Of a stretch of DNA of 24,498 nucleotides, positions 406-12,093 are shown piece by piece (position 1 is the stretch's first letter; each line of letters starts with the position of its first letter). The stretch is from a virus, in the IMG/VR virus record IMGVR_UViG_3300048929_000747, positions 1-24,498 of that record, one strand, 5' to 3'. The notes under the pieces are model-generated. The model worked only from the letters and a program-made list of their open reading frames with translations, had not been told where the DNA came from and did no database searches. The position numbers were made by a program, and so were the translations under genes.

Positions 406-520
406 TCGCGAGACGCGCCGGTTTCCGATGGGCCGGTAAGGCTAACCCTGTCTGGCTCCGCCACCCATGAGATTAGCCTCTCTGCTGGCGGAAATAATGA
501 CTGCCATTGGAGAATGTCTT
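385..520 (+). pseudogene. Broken Ash-type reading frame overlapping the immunity-RNA targets
   Basis: The frame starting at 385 encodes MVGRAGASRDAPVSDG, a pattern I associate with the N-terminal part of Ash-family proteins of P4-like elements. A neighbouring frame (261-470) carries the matching upstream and alternative parts, ending in GKANPVWLRHP. The continuous Ash frame is therefore split between two frames, and the 385 frame runs on out of register through the SymE-like gene. It more likely marks conserved RNA-pairing sequence or a decayed gene than an expressed protein. Confidence 0.35.
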
Positions 521-787
521 ATGACGAAAACCCTTACCAAAACCCAGCGCCACTGTATTGTCGGCTACCGCCCGAACCGCGGCGACACCAGCACACCCGC
601 CCTGCAACTGAAAGGCAAATGGCTGCGCGAAGCAGGCTTTGAAACCGGCGTGCATGTTACGGTGCAGATATCGAAAGGCTGCATTGTGCTTATTCCCGAT
701 AATGACACCGTGCATGAACTGCGTGTGCAACTGGAACAGGCCAGAGCGGTGATTGATTGCGTAAGGGAAGGGGTGAGGGGCGTTTAG
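521..787 (+). CDS. SymE-like type I toxin family protein
   Basis: The 88-aa product has the SymE-family core: HCIVGYRPNRGDT near residues 11-23, the LKGKWLREAGFETG segment near 30-43, and the VTVQISKGCIVLIPD strand pair near 46-60, as expected for the AbrB/MazE-like fold of SymE. E. coli SymE (about 113 aa) is an SOS-induced toxin held in check by the SymR antisense RNA. An upstream in-frame ATG at 467 would add 18 residues, but 521 is preferred because the family match begins there and GGAG lies about ten bases upstream. No LexA box is visible before the gene; instead the immunity-RNA-like leader precedes it. I see no clear antisense promoter. It could be a decayed or repurposed family member. 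Confidence 0.75.
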   Translation: MTKTLTKTQRHCIVGYRPNRGDTSTPALQLKGKWLREAGFETGVHVTVQISKGCIVLIPDNDTVHELRVQLEQARAVIDCVREGVRGV

Positions 788-1134: not shown

Positions 1135-3087
1135 TTAATCAAACCCTTCAAGTAAGTCATTTACACCATTGGATGTATCTAAAATAATATCGTTAAGGAT
1201 CTTGCCCGCAGCTTGTTTATATATTACGGGAGTCATGAGAGTATGCCTAAATTGGAGTATTATCCCTATAATGTCTGGGATAATTTCATTGCTAAAAACT
1301 ACAACATCTCCATCTTTAGTAGAGATTATTGTGTTTTCTGGTAATTTTAATGTATCAAAATACAATCTATCGTAATAATCTTTTTCTTTGAAAAAATATT
1401 CCGGATTTCTTAATCTAATTATTTCAAAAACAGTGCTCCTGAGAGATGTTGGATATGTTATATGGGTTACATAGTCACGAAAACCTATAAAACTGTTCTC
1501 GAAAGTATTGTTGGAAGAGGCCTCATCTCCGAAAACGTCAAAGTCACCGAGGCTTGTGTTGCTATAAGGCGTCAATAGTAGTCGCATATCAGTAAAATAG
1601 CTTATGCTCGTCCAGATTTCCTTATCACTTTCACTGAGAACATTAAGAGAGTCTATTTTTTCTGCATGGGTGAAATACTCATCCAGACATTTTCGCAATA
1701 TAGATTTTCTAAAAGAGGCGTAATCTATATCAGAACAAAGTTCAATAATATTTTTGAATTTCACCGAGCTATTACTTTCATACATTTTTAATAATAGCTG
1801 ATCTCTTTTATCTTTAACCTCGATACAAATAAATTCAGCGCAAAAGTATTCCATAAGTGATTTATGAGACCAGCGATATAGCGCTCCTTCCTTTATAAAC
1901 AGGGGGACTGAATATGTAAGATCACTGATGAAAGTTATTGGTTTGACACTTATGCCTTTAAGTTTTCCTGTTATTTCAGTTAGGGCCCTTTCAAGTTCCC
2001 CTCTACTAAACTCTAATCGTCCATTGTTTTTTAAACACCAAAAAGCTAACCGGCGCAAAATTATGCTAAAATCCGTTATATCCAGTCCAGATTCTTTTCT
2101 TCTAACGTAACCCGTTTCTTTACTAAGGTCGTGAGTCTCAAAAAGTGCCTCAAAAACTTGACTATAAAAAAGATCTTTACGACGTGGAATAACTGGTTTG
2201 TATTTATAAGAGCAAAAAAGGAGCGAAACATATAAAGGAGTTGTTAAAAACTCAATGATGGCACTATTATCTTTCTCTTTCATTAATTTTATTTCAGAAA
2301 TCAATTTATTAGAAAGTATTAGGCTGTTACCAATCTTTGATGAATTAATATCATACAATCTTATTAAATTGTAAGACTGGTTTATATCTAATGGTTTTAT
2401 TTTGAATCTGTTAAAAGCGTGTAACTCGAGAAGTGATTGGTCTGGCCTTGATGTAATGATTATTTTTGAATCAGGCATTTCATCACTAAAAGTTTTTATC
2501 CTTTTAATTAAATCGTTTTTTATATCAAAGGGAATTTCATCTACGCCATCAAAGAAATAAATAAATGGAATTTTTTGTAGTATGTTATCGTCGTTGAGGC
2601 TATCTAATCCGATTAAACTTTTTATTTGCTCATTAATCGGTGCGTTAGTGAGAGTTCTTAATTCTATGTATATAGGAACTTCTTTTGAGTAGTCAATAAC
2701 ATCGATGACAATTTTTTTCATTAACGTGGATTTGCCCATTCCAGCGTTATCTATAATTAGTATGTTCTGAAACCGACTTAAGAGACTATCACCTCTATGA
2801 ACCACATACTCACTTATCTCTCTAGAGTCTAATGTTGAAAGAGTTAATGGGACGTATATATCATTAACTTTTTTTAGAATATTTGGAAACGCTAGAGAAT
2901 TAATAAGTGAACATTGCGCCCTTGTTTTTGCTAAATAATCAGACATCTGACTTTTAAGCTTGATTATATTTTTTTCTTTATTATAAAAATCTATACCCCT
3001 GTTAAAGATAAAGGGGAGGATTTTTTCTTCAAATAGTTTTGCAGCCCAAGGCTTGGCTAATTCGACAGCATGCTCAATAGTTATCAT
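1135..3087 (-). CDS. NACHT-domain STAND NTPase, probable anti-phage defence protein
   Basis: The 650-aa product has a Walker A motif DNAGMGKST at 113-121 (K119), a Walker B of NACHT type FFDGVDE at 178-184, and the sensor segment IIITSRP at 209-215. A SHKSLMEYFCAEF motif near 407-419 matches the conserved winged-helix region after NACHT modules. The N-terminal 95 residues are helical and include FPNILKKVNDIYVPL, an arrangement I associate with bacterial NACHT proteins. The last 230 residues have no recognised repeats and may form the sensor. Bacterial NACHT proteins are NLR relatives and several protect against phage; a defence role here is inference. The start has GGGAG about seven bases upstream. 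The gene is far more AT-rich than the prophage, a sign of transfer. It stands alone, with no partner gene visible. Confidence 0.85.
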   Translation of the reverse strand: MITIEHAVELAKPWAAKLFEEKILPFIFNRGIDFYNKEKNIIKLKSQMSDYLAKTRAQCSLINSLAFPNILKKVNDIYVPLTLSTLDSREISEYVVHRGDSLLSRFQNILIIDNAGMGKSTLMKKIVIDVIDYSKEVPIYIELRTLTNAPINEQIKSLIGLDSLNDDNILQKIPFIYFFDGVDEIPFDIKNDLIKRIKTFSDEMPDSKIIITSRPDQSLLELHAFNRFKIKPLDINQSYNLIRLYDINSSKIGNSLILSNKLISEIKLMKEKDNSAIIEFLTTPLYVSLLFCSYKYKPVIPRRKDLFYSQVFEALFETHDLSKETGYVRRKESGLDITDFSIILRRLAFWCLKNNGRLEFSRGELERALTEITGKLKGISVKPITFISDLTYSVPLFIKEGALYRWSHKSLMEYFCAEFICIEVKDKRDQLLLKMYESNSSVKFKNIIELCSDIDYASFRKSILRKCLDEYFTHAEKIDSLNVLSESDKEIWTSISYFTDMRLLLTPYSNTSLGDFDVFGDEASSNNTFENSFIGFRDYVTHITYPTSLRSTVFEIIRLRNPEYFFKEKDYYDRLYFDTLKLPENTIISTKDGDVVVFSNEIIPDIIGIILQFRHTLMTPVIYKQAAGKILNDIILDTSNGVNDLLEGFD

Positions 3088-3300: not shown

Positions 3301-3335
3301 AAAAAAGCCCGCAGGGCTTACGCCGTGCGGGCTTT
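3301..3335 (-). terminator. ssrA (tmRNA) transcription terminator
   Basis: AAAGCCCGCA (3304-3313) and TGCGGGCTTT (3326-3335) make a perfect 10-bp stem, and the minus strand continues as a run of six T. Stem sequence and distance from the tmRNA CCA end resemble the E. coli ssrA terminator. This shows that the left flank is the original host sequence downstream of ssrA. Confidence 0.85.
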
Positions 3336-3379
3336 CAGGACTTCGTTGACTGGCTCTGGTGACCATCAACCAAGAATTT

Positions 3380-3423
3380 TGGTGGAGCTGGCGGGAGTTG
3401 AACCCGCGTCCGAAATTCCTACA
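3380..3423 (-). other. ssrA: ssrA 3'-end remnant, prophage attachment site
   Basis: The minus strand reads TGTAGGAATTTCGG followed by the tmRNA T-arm and acceptor end in CCA, identical as far as I can recall to the last 44 bases of enterobacterial tmRNA. Beyond 3423 the match stops and phage sequence begins. The ssrA 3' end is a classic integration target for tyrosine recombinases. Because only the 3' fragment with its native terminator is here, the complete ssrA, restored by the phage copy of the core, should lie at the other end of the prophage, beyond the window. Confidence 0.85.
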
Positions 3424-3436
3424 CTCTTATATGTCA

Positions 3437-3468
3437 TCATTGAAATCAATAATTTATCATTAAAATCA
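3437..3468. repeat. Direct repeat near attachment core, candidate integrase arm sites
   Basis: TCATTGAAATCA (3437-3448) and TCATTAAAATCA (3457-3468) differ at one base and are spaced exactly 20 bp. Their position just inside the attachment core fits arm-type Int or Cox/Xis sites, which is an inference only. Confidence 0.4.
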
Positions 3469-3476
3469 TATAATTA

Positions 3477-3505
3477 AGTGACAATTGCTAACATTGGTTG
3501 TCACT
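3477..3505 (-). terminator. Inverted repeat after the lysogeny operon
   Basis: AGTGACAA (3477-3484) and TTGTCACT (3498-3505) are perfect 8-bp arms around a 13-base loop. It lies just beyond the end of the membrane-protein gene; on the minus strand it is followed by an AT-rich stretch, so it may be a terminator of the cI-int operon or a protein-binding site. Confidence 0.4.
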
Positions 3506-3534
3506 CGTTTATGGAGTCTGTGGACGTAATATGG

Positions 3535-4575
3535 TCATGCATGCGAGGTATAGTCGATGAATTTAGGTTTGTAGACTGTTGTCTGATGCTGGGGTATAAC
3601 AGTCTCAGTTTTCCAAAGATCATGGTTCTCAAGGTGTGTATAATTTATTTTTGAAACCAAGTATTTATCAATATTAGTATAATCACTTTTTTTCAATATG
3701 ACTTCATTTCCAATAAGAAAAATGTCATTTGTTAACACCCAGAAACATTTAATAATGTTTCTTAAATCATTCTCACTTTGAATTCCTGTATGTAACGTAA
3801 AATTTTTATGATTATAGATTTGAAAAGTATATTTAAATTTAATTTCATCAAGGAAAAGTTTTCTACTTAATTTTCTTATGCAAAGTTCTAAAGAGTGTAT
3901 GTTTTTTGCTTGGCGCGTTTTATAATTTCTTTTCTCACCGGGAATATCTTTATAATTTTTTTTATCTAGTAAGATGTTTATTTTTATCCATGTTGATTTT
4001 ATTGAGTTGATATATTCTTTGGATAGAGTGAAATTATTATCAATGGGTGAAGATTGCGGAAAAAGTTTTTGATATAACTTATAGGTGTGTTTTACCTTAA
4101 TGAAACGCTCTTCATGTGTGTTTTGCCGTGGGTTACCTGCTTTTAGAGTATATTGAATATGTGTTGAGAAATATTCAATTGTATTTTTTTGATGCGAGTA
4201 AAATAAGTCTGACAGATTTTTCTTCTTGGCTTCTTTTATTTGTGCGTCAGTCTGTATTGTTCTGTGGATATTATTTATAACAGCTAAGAAAGGAATGCTT
4301 AGTGATAACAATCCTAAAGGCAATTTACCTCTTTCAATAAAATTTGAAAAGCCTTTGGATGTAAAGTTAGGTGGGTGGCCACACCATGCGAAAAATCCAA
4401 AGAAAATAAATGAAATTAATGGAACTCTTATGGCTGCTCTGAAAAGTAATTGTTCTGATAGAGGTTTCTCATTCATAGAAAAACCGCTCCTTCTTTTTAG
4501 TGTTTTATACTCAATAAATAAATAGATGGCATAAATAACTAAAGCTAATGTTGAATGTGTAAAATAATTTTTCAT
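3535..4575 (-). CDS. Membrane-anchored protein of unknown function, prophage cargo gene
   Basis: The 346-aa product has three hydrophobic segments near residues 7-23, 51-65 and 85-101, followed by a Lys-rich, probably cytoplasmic region of about 240 residues. After the third segment, NNIHRTIQTDAQIKEAKKK and a Phe/Tyr/His-containing helix recall the general architecture of membrane-anchored abortive-infection candidates, but I cannot assign a family. The start codon overlaps the int stop as ATGA (4572-4575), so translation is probably coupled to int and the gene expressed in the lysogen. Its base composition is much more AT-rich than the neighbouring phage genes. Position between int and the attachment core, in the lysogenic operon, suggests lysogenic conversion such as superinfection exclusion or defence; this is inference. 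Confidence 0.8.
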   Translation of the reverse strand: MKNYFTHSTLALVIYAIYLFIEYKTLKRRSGFSMNEKPLSEQLLFRAAIRVPLISFIFFGFFAWCGHPPNFTSKGFSNFIERGKLPLGLLSLSIPFLAVINNIHRTIQTDAQIKEAKKKNLSDLFYSHQKNTIEYFSTHIQYTLKAGNPRQNTHEERFIKVKHTYKLYQKLFPQSSPIDNNFTLSKEYINSIKSTWIKINILLDKKNYKDIPGEKRNYKTRQAKNIHSLELCIRKLSRKLFLDEIKFKYTFQIYNHKNFTLHTGIQSENDLRNIIKCFWVLTNDIFLIGNEVILKKSDYTNIDKYLVSKINYTHLENHDLWKTETVIPQHQTTVYKPKFIDYTSHA

Positions 4576-5588
4576 TTTTTTAAACCGTATAATGGATTTT
4601 TTGTTACTGCATCTTCTAAATGTGTTGGTGCGAAGTGCGCATATATCATAGTCATTTTGATATCTGAATGGCCTAATATTTCCTTAAGTACGAGAATATT
4701 ACCTCCATTCATCATAAAGTGGCTCGCGAACGTATGGCGGAGAACGTGTGTGCATTGGCCTTCTGGAAGTTCGATACCTGCCTTTATTATAACCCTTTCA
4801 AATGTTTTTCTACATGGAGTAAATAAGCGGCCTCGTTTTTTGGGGATTTCATTATAAAGTTCTTTTGAGATTGGAACCGAGCGAACCTTTCCGCTTTTTG
4901 TATTTTTATATGTTATGCGGTAGGGAGTAACTTGTGCCCCTTCTAGATTTTCGGCCTCACTCCATCGTGCTCCAGTTGCGAGACATATTTTTGATATAAT
5001 TAGAACGCTGGAACTATTAGACTCAGCTAAATGATCCAATAATATTTGGATCTCTTGAGGATAGAGAAACGAAACCATTTTTTCATCGACTTTGAAAGTT
5101 GGGATTCCAGCTACGGGATTTGATAGAGGCCAGTGTCCTAGTTTTTTCAAAGTGCCAAAAACGGCTGATAAGTTACGCTGTTCATGATTTACAGTTTGCG
5201 GTTGGATTGGCATGCATCGCCCCTTAATATCTGGTATCTCTCCCTTTAGCCTGCCTTCACGGTATGCGCTAAAATCAGCAGCCGTGATACTTGAAGCAAC
5301 CGGGTTACCCATACCAGCGCAGATGCCCTTCAATTTAGACATCATCCGATCCGCATCGGAAAGAGTTCGTCCATACAATGCATACCATTGTTCAATTAGG
5401 TCCGATAGTCGCCTATTGTCCTGCTTTTCCCCTAGCCATGGTTTATTTTCAAGTTCATTTGAAATGAATTTTTCATAAGATAAGGCTTCTCCCTTTGTTG
5501 CAAACTTTTTGCGTATACGTTTCCCTTTTACACCGTTAGGGCGCAAATCACAGATCCATTCCCCTTCCTTTGTTTTTCTTACTGTCAT
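4572..5588 (-). CDS. int: Phage integrase, tyrosine recombinase
   Basis: The 338-aa protein carries the tyrosine-recombinase residues R208 (TGARWSEAE), the H281-x-x-R284 pair (HVLRHTF), H307 (GHS) and the nucleophile Y316 (MIYAHF). A Lys in KSGKVR (231-234) is the likely beta-hairpin lysine. The N-terminal 55 residues resemble an arm-binding domain and residues 60-160 a core-binding SAM-like domain. Length matches P2-type integrases. It should act at the ssrA attachment core about 1.1 kb away. Its ATG overlaps the cI stop by one base (TAATG on the minus strand) and its stop overlaps the cargo-gene ATG, so all three appear to be one operon. Confidence 0.96.
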   Translation of the reverse strand: MTVRKTKEGEWICDLRPNGVKGKRIRKKFATKGEALSYEKFISNELENKPWLGEKQDNRRLSDLIEQWYALYGRTLSDADRMMSKLKGICAGMGNPVASSITAADFSAYREGRLKGEIPDIKGRCMPIQPQTVNHEQRNLSAVFGTLKKLGHWPLSNPVAGIPTFKVDEKMVSFLYPQEIQILLDHLAESNSSSVLIISKICLATGARWSEAENLEGAQVTPYRITYKNTKSGKVRSVPISKELYNEIPKKRGRLFTPCRKTFERVIIKAGIELPEGQCTHVLRHTFASHFMMNGGNILVLKEILGHSDIKMTMIYAHFAPTHLEDAVTKNPLYGLKK

Positions 5589-6163
5589 TATTCATAAACC
5601 AAATATGTTGCAACAACTTTCCCAACTAGCGTTACATCAGAAATATTGCAATCCACAGGATATTTTCCCCAATCAATTCGAAGCTTGTTACCTGGAAGCA
5701 GTGTTAACTCTTTAATACTCTTGGTACCTGAATACTCAATCAAGTACTTACCATCAGTTGCTTGATGAGTATGAATGTCTACAAAGTAGGTTATACCCTC
5801 ATCAATTATTATTTGTAGTTCACCTAAGTAGTTCGGCAGCAGAGCTTTATCATAAATATAGGATGCCTGTCGCACTAACTCATTTTTTGAAATTTTGTAG
5901 ACCGGGATTCTTAGAGTATCGCTGGTGAGATGGTCAAATGTAGCTCCTTCCCCGGTAGTTAACCAGTAGATGGATGCTCCGGTTTCTAAAGCACATCTCA
6001 ATACGAGGTCTGATGGGAAATTGTCTCGCATGATCCTTGTGCCCAAAGCACTTGGGGACATTTCCAAGTATTGAGCCAATTGAAGCCTTGAAGTGAAACC
6101 ATACACCTCGCAGATTCTTGCAACAGCCTCTCTGGCGCCTGTTTTGATATTATATTTTGGCAT
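5588..6163 (-). CDS. cI: Phage 186-like CI repressor
   Basis: The 191-aa product is close in length to the 186 CI repressor (192 aa). Residues 10-60 form a helix-turn-helix domain (CI-repressor type, with FTSRLQLAQYLEMSPSALGTRI), followed by a C-terminal beta-rich domain for oligomerisation. I see no Ala-Gly cleavage site with the Ser/Lys dyad of LexA-like repressors, which agrees with 186 CI not being RecA-cleaved. It is expected to repress the rightward early promoter and control its own transcription through the operators at 6165-6231. The Shine-Dalgarno sequence is weak and overlaps the operator copy next to the start codon. Confidence 0.9.
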   Translation of the reverse strand: MPKYNIKTGAREAVARICEVYGFTSRLQLAQYLEMSPSALGTRIMRDNFPSDLVLRCALETGASIYWLTTGEGATFDHLTSDTLRIPVYKISKNELVRQASYIYDKALLPNYLGELQIIIDEGITYFVDIHTHQATDGKYLIEYSGTKSIKELTLLPGNKLRIDWGKYPVDCNISDVTLVGKVVATYLVYE

Positions 6164-10555: not shown

Positions 10556-10768
10556 GTGCAAGATTTATTGTTTGAAACTATCGCTGTTCGGCGCATTGCT
10601 TTAGTGGCTAAGTTGGTCACCATCAGTGATTGTTCTGACGAAGAAAAAGATGTAGCGCTGGCCTGGCTGGGAGAATTAACGCATGAACTGGGAAGTCGGC
10701 TTGATGAGTACGAAAAAGAAAACCCCCATAATGGGGGGGCTTTAGGCGGCGGGCGAAGCTTTCAGTAA
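10556..10768 (+). CDS. Small SOS-controlled phage protein of unknown function
   Basis: The gene begins at GTG 10556, which has GGGAGG six bases upstream and lies 21 bases after the LexA box; an upstream in-frame ATG at 10502 would start before the box and is rejected. The product has about 70 residues: an N-terminal helix (QDLLFETIAVRRIALVAKLV), then acidic helical segments to about residue 55, and a Gly-rich tail encoded across the terminator of the opposite operon. It is not a DinI-type sequence. Its control resembles Tum of phage 186, the LexA-regulated antirepressor that inactivates CI, but size and sequence differ, so an antirepressor role is only a hypothesis. It runs convergent to ogr and overlaps its end by 27 bases. 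Confidence 0.7.
   Translation: MQDLLFETIAVRRIALVAKLVTISDCSDEEKDVALAWLGELTHELGSRLDEYEKENPHNGGALGGGRSFQ
10721..10740 (-). terminator. Terminator of the leftward P-Q-ogr operon
   Basis: CCCCCA (10723-10728) and TGGGGG (10732-10737) form a strong GC hairpin with a TAA loop. On the minus strand it is followed by TTTTCTTTTT, typical of an intrinsic terminator right after the ogr stop. It lies inside the 3' part of the SOS-controlled gene; on the plus strand only CTTT follows. Confidence 0.75.
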
Positions 10769-11011
10769 ATCCAGTGCCATCTGTTTCTGATCGGGTGAGA
10801 GATTTTTTAGTAGCGTTTGCACTAACTTATCACCCGTTTTAGCGCTTGGACTCAGAGTGTGGGAAAACGTCAAATTCATAACAAAAGTATGCCCACACTC
10901 TACGTCAGCGCATGCGCAGTAAATATCTGCGATCTGCCTATGCTTCCGGTTGGTCTTTTTAATAACAGCTTTAGAGCCGCACTCCGGGCACTCGATCTTC
11001 AGGACTCTCAT
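10742..11011 (-). CDS. ogr: Ogr/Delta-family late-gene activator
   Basis: The 89-aa product has the zinc-binding pattern C8-x2-C11-x22-C34-x4-C39, exactly that of P2 Ogr, P4 Delta and 186 B. These proteins bind upstream of late promoters near -55 and contact the RNA polymerase alpha subunit. The ATG at 11011 is chosen because GGAGAG lies seven bases upstream and the family match starts there; the longer frame to 11065 has no support. It is slightly longer than P2 Ogr (72 aa) by a C-terminal tail. It follows Q in the same direction, 50 bases downstream, so it may be co-transcribed with the genes it activates; in P2 ogr lies at the far end of the genome. Confidence 0.93.
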   Translation of the reverse strand: MRVLKIECPECGSKAVIKKTNRKHRQIADIYCACADVECGHTFVMNLTFSHTLSPSAKTGDKLVQTLLKNLSPDQKQMALDLLKASPAA

Positions 11012-11061
11012 ATTCCGCTCTCCGGCTGTTAAATGATGCCTGGATTTTAGCCTTTTTTGCC

Positions 11062-12093
11062 TCATGCCGCACCCTCTGTTTGTTGTGGGAAATCAAAGTT
11101 AAGGTGCAGATATTCCGGGATTTCCGGGTCGGCGCTGATGGCCTCCATAAAGCGGCGCTGGAGGGGTAGCACTTCGCTTTTTTTGTAAATGCGCTCTGCC
11201 TTCTCCGGGTCGCCCAGTCCGGCAGCATTCTGTGCAATTTGCCCGGCCAGACCTGCCGGAAAGCGGTGCGCATTCAGCACATCCTGGGCGCTGATGTTCT
11301 TCACGCTCGCAAACTCATCATTGGCAGAAATGTCGCCCATCTGAATAAACTGCACCCCGTCTTTTTGCCCGTTCGGAATATTCACCAGAATCGTGGAGAA
11401 GTTACCGATCCCTTTGCTGTCACGCAGCTGGCGTTCAATTTCTTCTTCCAGTTCGTCGGTCATGCTGGGGTCAGAGGTGTACAGGATGCCGCCCGTATGT
11501 GCGCCGTTGTGGTAGTAGCGGCGGCGGAAAATCACCGCCTCACTGTTAAGCAGCGCGGAGTGAATGCCGCCGATGTAGTCCGGCAGGCCGTAGATATGCT
11601 GTTGCGGGTCATACATACGCAGAAAAACCACGTCTTCCGGCGGATAAATCAGCGGCTCACCCTGTTGCAGCACAGCAAACTCCCCCGTTTTACGACGACG
11701 CGTATACAACCCCGGCAAGGGTGCCAGGGCGATTACGTCACCCCAGCCATTGCGAATTTTTACGATCCCCACATCCCCGAAGGTAATAAAATCAAACACC
11801 GCGGCTTCAAGGTCATCACGGGATAACCCGCCGCCGATATAGTCAGCCAGCACCATGTTTTTACGTGAGTGGATGATGCCGCCGTGCTGGCCATTCAGGT
11901 TAATCAGCTGCGCCAGCGCCAGCCTGTCAATCGGCAGCGTAAAGTGATTGGCCTCGTTGTCATACCATACGTCGCAGTAATCCGTGCCGGTGGTCAGTAC
12001 CGGTTCGGGCTTGCCGAAACGCAGGATACTCATCTTTTTGGCTGGCGCGTTTTTACCTTTACCGCGCGCGGCGGTGTATTTCTTCTTTTTCAT
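11062..12093 (-). CDS. Q: Portal protein, gpQ
   Basis: The 343-aa product matches P2 gpQ (344 aa), the PBSX-type portal family. Recognisable blocks are DYCDVWYDNEANHFTLPIDRLALAQL, the RRYYHNGAHTGGILY segment and DVLNAHRFPAGLAG. Portal dodecamers form the head vertex for DNA entry and tail joining. A Lys-rich N-terminus precedes the core. The ATG overlaps the P stop by four bases, so translation is coupled. It is the second gene of the leftward late operon. Confidence 0.96.
   Translation of the reverse strand: MKKKKYTAARGKGKNAPAKKMSILRFGKPEPVLTTGTDYCDVWYDNEANHFTLPIDRLALAQLINLNGQHGGIIHSRKNMVLADYIGGGLSRDDLEAAVFDFITFGDVGIVKIRNGWGDVIALAPLPGLYTRRRKTGEFAVLQQGEPLIYPPEDVVFLRMYDPQQHIYGLPDYIGGIHSALLNSEAVIFRRRYYHNGAHTGGILYTSDPSMTDELEEEIERQLRDSKGIGNFSTILVNIPNGQKDGVQFIQMGDISANDEFASVKNISAQDVLNAHRFPAGLAGQIAQNAAGLGDPEKAERIYKKSEVLPLQRRFMEAISADPEIPEYLHLNFDFPQQTEGAA

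Follow-up and report, generated by a model that had tools for sequence, protein, structure and literature searches.

P2-like prophages rank with the richest sources of anti-phage genes known from E. coli and its relatives, and these genes have been found through two fixed places in the genome, the cos-proximal gpA-gpQ interval and a second hotspot that contains fun (PMC9122126, PMC9519451). In Vibrio K139-like phages, which are related to P2, a hotspot lies in the repressor-integrase region, with its cargo between cI and int (PMC9122126). The lysogenic operon of this phage group is known from phage 186, where CII activates pE, CI activates pL, and the operon yields CI and integrase (PMC8538670).

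The locus considered here lies in a viral DNA stretch of 24,498 nucleotides (IMG/VR record IMGVR_UViG_3300048929_000747, positions 1 to 24,498), referred to below as the window, and belongs to a P2-like (ESSI-2/Fels-2/186-type) prophage in the tmRNA gene. Among recorded phages the nearest is Cronobacter phage ESSI-2, with an integrase 87.5% identical to that of the window; the phage 186 integrase is 51% identical. Between int and the attachment site this prophage carries a gene for a membrane protein (Table 1), in an interval that we term the int-attP slot. The slot resembles the P2 hotspots in being a small, fast-turnover cargo locus of P2-like prophages with unrelated anti-phage genes inside (PMC9122126, PMC9519451). 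It differs from them in its apparent membership of the lysogenic operon, in holding usually one gene that is closely coupled to int, and in having its junctions at the NPL codons of int and 111-118 bp from the attachment core. The interval that corresponds to the A-Q hotspot of P2 is occupied in the window phage by an ogr/delta-like zinc-finger gene (10742-11065, minus strand), with replication gene A on one side and the portal gene on the other. The likeness to the K139-like arrangement is that the cargo sits in the repressor-integrase region of a P2-related phage, but in the window it comes after int, on the att side.

The 346-aa open reading frame is confirmed as a real gene: the chance of 346 open codons at 29% GC is about 2e-13, and it is in frame with a protein 92% identical to it and with numerous remoter homologues. 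Codon comparison of the window copy with the 92% identical homologue gave a dN/dS of 0.26 overall, 0.08 over codons 1-140 and 0.39 over codons 141-346, showing that the gene is, as judged from these ratios, under purifying selection. A first-pass annotation of this DNA had described cI, int and the third gene as overlapping by 1 and 4 bases on the minus strand, and the coordinates bear this out (TAATG for cI/int and ATGA for int/membrane gene). Its view of the third gene as translationally locked to the operon holds for the window copy and for roughly ten other loci with the same -4 overlap, but the exact ATGA is variable elsewhere. Start codons in family relatives fall from about -44 to +14 relative to the int stop, so that the exact overlap is no requirement, though close coupling is typical. 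There is no Shine-Dalgarno-like stretch upstream of the ATG (acggtttaaaaaaATG), which fits translational coupling. The foreign, AT-rich composition assigned to the gene was likewise right as to its 29% GC, but cI and int are AT-rich too, to a lesser degree (40-41%), the remaining phage being at 55%.

cI and int are adjacent on the same strand and no terminator separates them from the cargo, so the membrane gene, standing third, should be read in the lysogen; by analogy with phage 186, we infer that it is transcribed there from the CI-controlled lysogenic promoter. A simple promoter scan of the sequence did not locate pL, and its best minus-strand match overlaps the start of cI. The operon had been described as ending at the attachment core. 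The ssrA core does lie downstream, but the operon stops short of it, at the attachment site's P arm, with 111 bp from the last stop codon to the start of the core. The 3' end of tmRNA was matched by Rfam at 3380-3439 (minus strand, E=1e-10), with a score under the gathering cut-off because only this end of the RNA is present. The terminator-like site beyond the core, read from 3319 to 3305 in ssrA-flanking DNA, is the usual enterobacterial ssrA terminator, and in ESSI-2 the phage arm past the core opens with a terminator-like hairpin and a T run in its sequence. Taken together, these two observations indicate that the window contains an integrated prophage end and that the operon meets a terminator in either state.

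Table 1. Features of the cI-int-cargo operon and attachment site in the window
Feature	Coordinates	Strand	Basis
Intrinsic terminator-like site, ssrA flank	3305-3319	minus	best one downstream of the operon (integrated state)
Attachment core, tmRNA (ssrA) 3' end	3379-3426	minus	sequence comparison and Rfam
Attachment site P arm, with repeat-like integrase arm motifs (tccacattttgtccac-type in relatives)	3427-3534		near-constant length from cargo stop to core
Membrane protein gene (346-aa ORF, ATG start)	3535-4575	minus	ORF and PHROG_17460 match
Putative exchangeable cassette: cargo gene and the last, variable int codons (those after NPL)	3535-4589	minus	junction comparison
int (tyrosine integrase; C-terminal end ...KNPL-YGLKK, then stop)	4572-5588	minus	Pfam
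cI (CI repressor; Phage_CI_repr and Phage_CI_C)	5588-6163	minus	Pfam

A survey of variable genes between int and the attachment site had been proposed with the annotation, and the interval proved variable across 72 evaluable relatives. These were drawn from a set of 80 viral contigs, picked for having the most similar integrase and without regard to cargo, which gave 79 distinct loci, 72 of them reaching far enough; the loci are not independent, many coming from related strains. The flanking genes stay the same from relative to relative, and the cargo differs or is missing. The membrane family fills the slot in 23 of the 72 loci (joined in two by GapS1 as second gene), a RES-like family of about 400 aa fills it in 21, and 18 slots are empty, with 130-187 bp between the int stop and the core motif (counted to its GGGTTCAA part). 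GapS1 stands alone in four further loci, making six in all. The rarer contents are a DCD+ThyX pair (two loci) and, in one locus each, a dCTP deaminase, SMEK, a 218-aa membrane protein and an unclassified occupant. Some of these belong to known anti-phage families: GapS1 was matched by NCBIfam (E=1e-133), the anti-phage dCTP deaminase by PADLOC (E=9e-146) and also by E. coli annotation, and SMEK/Aga-REase by a family match. In annotated E. coli prophages the interval carries "hypothetical protein" genes, GapS1 or the anti-phage dCTP deaminase. Cargo GC is 27-34% in loci of 37-50%.

Members of the family of about 400 aa (for example L065 7027-8253, L074 5789-6982 and L111 7023-8234, with 18 others) are 37-54% identical to one another. 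No Pfam family scored over the cut-off, and six of nine members gave a weak RES-domain signal (best E 0.04); that these proteins are divergent NAD-cleaving toxins is, on this signal, possible but unproven. In the DCD+ThyX pair (L090 7044-8611 and L099 7041-8596, with a 4-base overlap in L090), the DCD/dUTPase-like protein bears a C-terminal membrane helix, and ThyX is a thymidylate synthase.

The borders of the slot were compared at junctions across about 40 loci. Integrase is conserved to KNPL in empty and filled loci alike (NPI in one member), the roughly 2-10 residues after it vary with the cargo, and in most loci the core lies 111-118 bp beyond the cargo stop, or beyond the int stop where the slot is empty. 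Some cargo genes, for example those of L002, L065 and L130 and the second one of L019, extend about 30 bp into the arm, with a GGxLAAEH-like tail. The retention of int to KNPL and the near-constant spacing mark a precise cassette slot, whose exchanged unit would run from 4589 to 3535 of the window. No more than homologous recombination within int and within the att arm would be needed for such an exchange, and the slot raises the question of how cassettes can be swapped with such precision next to the integrase while attP stays intact. The cargo appears dispensable, given the empty slots and the membrane family gene broken by an IS5-like transposase gene in L024 and L110. Slot-mates of this kind speak for the status of the membrane gene as cargo but do not make every cargo defensive; judged by these comparisons, it is very probably an exchangeable lysogeny cargo.

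The literature that we searched, outside which many subscription papers lie, contained no description of the int-attP slot, and its limited reach makes any claim of novelty provisional. With that proviso, we tentatively put forward the int-attP interval of tmRNA-integrating P2-like phages as a possible undescribed defence cassette slot with near base-precise borders, which would feed foreign genes into the lysogenic operon and whose two commonest occupants, the three-helix HRTxQT membrane family and the RES-like family, may represent two candidate classes of anti-phage effector. It would be the third such place in P2-like prophages, delimited by the simple rule that it runs from the KNPL codons of integrase to the tmRNA core. 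Its cargo should be expressed in the lysogen without a promoter of its own, and it supplies a list of uncharacterised single genes as candidates for testing.

The membrane protein itself had been reported to have no recognised family. This stands for Pfam, NCBIfam and PADLOC 2.0.0, none of which gave an accepted family, but not for PHROG_17460, which a profile search matched over residues 9-293 (E=1.2e-57). The protein is a direct member of that group, which is annotated as of unknown function and hence explains nothing by itself. A DUF4494 match in Pfam (E=0.002) was below the cut-off, occurred in one member only and was set aside as chance. Besides the 92% identical homologue, found in another viral contig, there are more than 40 further relatives, mostly 20-40% identical. 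Within the family, residues 81-120 are highly conserved and those beyond 140 poorly, and a motif that follows helix 3 at residues 102-130, NxHRTxQTxxQ...KNxxDxYYxHxK, is invariant or nearly so in 20 aligned members.

Three membrane segments and a cytoplasmic part had also been read from the sequence, and this fits the AlphaFold2 model (pLDDT 78.5 for the whole protein), which places membrane helices at 2-28, 43-64 and 73-91, followed by a long helix (93-139) that leaves the membrane and by a mixed helix/strand domain. The cytoplasmic part would begin at about residue 93, and its domain (about 112-312, some 200 aa) gave a pLDDT of 86.6 and a pTM of 0.84 when modelled alone. A three-helix membrane anchor joined to a folded cytoplasmic domain is thus predicted with good model confidence; the charge rule for topology is weakly informative on this protein. 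The AlphaFold/Foldseek comparison proposed alongside the annotation yielded this model and no clear PDB match. Searches of PDB and VIA with the whole model and the cytoplasmic domain, and of BFVD with the whole model, gave no convincing fold match (the top Z was 5.7 with either model, and Foldseek against the PDB gave no E below 0.4), the ferritin-like and HPt-like rows looking like helical-bundle noise, and a sequence search of the PDB found no match.

A resemblance is offered by putAbiC (PF16872), a group of putative phage abortive infection proteins, having membrane helices and then a helical cytoplasmic domain, and homology was considered because of a look-alike motif (FGDYIGGLLNPxLSF against FxNFIExSKLPLxLLSL). 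However, there is no sequence-profile homology to the membrane family: putAbiC was absent in a Pfam scan of 21 family members, and hhalign against 12 putAbiC proteins, which gave probabilities of 3-6% over 11-12 columns only, led us to drop the idea. A putAbiC gene was found beside a P2-like portal gene. The membrane protein matched none of the anti-phage profiles of PADLOC 2.0.0, a 2023 library that may or may not include a model of the validated PD-T7-4 (PMC9519451).

The annotation had suggested a conversion gene of the lysogenic operon, such as superinfection exclusion or abortive infection; the slot survey supports conversion or defence well and does not separate exclusion from abortive infection. 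The slot-mates, and what is known of P2-like hotspots (PMC9122126, PMC9519451), make an anti-phage role for the membrane gene probable. The most economical reading of its mode of action is a membrane-acting sensor-effector, since a strongly conserved membrane module is joined to a fast-evolving cytoplasmic domain, and we regard this mechanism as plausible but a little short of an even chance. In our model, the gene would be a one-gene cassette between the last int codons and the P arm, read as the third gene of cI-int-cargo. The fast-evolving cytoplasmic domain would sense a product of the infecting phage, upon which the conserved membrane module, comprising the third helix and the continuing HRTxQT helix, would disturb the inner membrane, and the damage would result in growth arrest or death of the infected cell before the rival phage multiplies. 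Taken as a whole, the explanation that the gene is lysogen-expressed anti-phage cargo, its product most likely an abortive-infection effector that acts on the membrane and has a cytoplasmic sensor, is one that we consider evenly balanced between right and wrong.

An inner-membrane protein that is made by the prophage, apparently from the lysogenic operon, and that is swapped for other anti-competitor genes could also act by superinfection exclusion, blocking DNA entry of related phages in the lysogen without cell death. The exclusion proteins known so far are for the most part small and work at the membrane or on its periplasmic side. In the predicted topology, however, only a short stretch of about 10-20 aa, the loop that joins helices 2 and 3, would be exposed to the periplasm, and the folded, fast-evolving domain of about 200 aa would be cytoplasmic, so that we consider exclusion unlikely. 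Rather unlikely, too, is a conversion gene that serves host fitness through an envelope, stress or colonisation trait unrelated to phage defence: prophage cargo slots can hold such genes, and the membrane protein has no direct defence homology, but the other recognisable occupants of the slot are mostly defence or toxin-like, and the family occurs in prophage-like contexts wherever the context is readable.

Members of the family are present in about 2% of a family-level genome sample (9/392, two of them seeds) and, at the DNA level, in 21 of 5426 E. coli genomes; a contig scan with alignment A4 gave seven loci. Distant members (profile match of the distant set 99%) are found in Pseudomonas and Xenorhabdus prophages, in a Vibrio inovirus and in a Vibrio tectivirus-like element, where the gene directly follows a LexA-like repressor. 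That it stands next to a repressor in an element of unrelated kind speaks for a role in protecting the lysogen and not in integration. A lysogeny or integration accessory, such as a membrane anchor or regulator aiding integrase, CI or prophage stability, would accord with the usual position beside int or the repressor, the apparent co-transcription and the translational overlap, but we dropped it as highly improbable because the gene is absent from phages with 80-88% identical integrase (ESSI-2, L048, L053, L054), some of them at 85-88%, can have its place taken by unrelated proteins, in some cases encoded on the other strand (dCTP deaminase), and has relatives in elements, among them the two from Vibrio, that lack this integrase.

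Some members of the family have distinctive neighbours. In the Pseudomonas-type loci L040 (4926-7067) and L043 (353-2554), a second conserved membrane protein gene, of 345 aa, follows the family gene, the pair forming part of a P2/CTX-like late-gene region, where in L040 it comes after gpD. In two loci without a recognised tmRNA core, the family gene is followed, about 1 kb further downstream, by a gene for a GtrB-like bactoprenol glucosyltransferase (L026 6929-7867, L057 8981-9919). L003 (CP019275.1), a circular 37-kb "E. coli plasmid" record, is a P2-like phage genome with many frameshifts, and its cargo gene continues across the origin of the circular record, next to a fragment of an NAD kinase.

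In the flanking DNA of the window, outside the prophage and immediately beyond the attachment core, lies a gene for a 650-aa NACHT/STAND-like NTPase (1135-3087, minus strand; phrog_18297; 32% GC), with weak NACHT, nSTAND3 and Avs2 matches. At the equivalent position L008 has an OLD-like ATPase and a small membrane protein, and then the same SymE-like gene that the window retains where its variable flank ends (467-787, plus strand), a SymE-like endoribonuclease gene matched below the cut-off by NCBIfam PRK13605 (E=8e-14). By its gene content in the window and L008, the tmRNA flank is a second variable, defence-like site.
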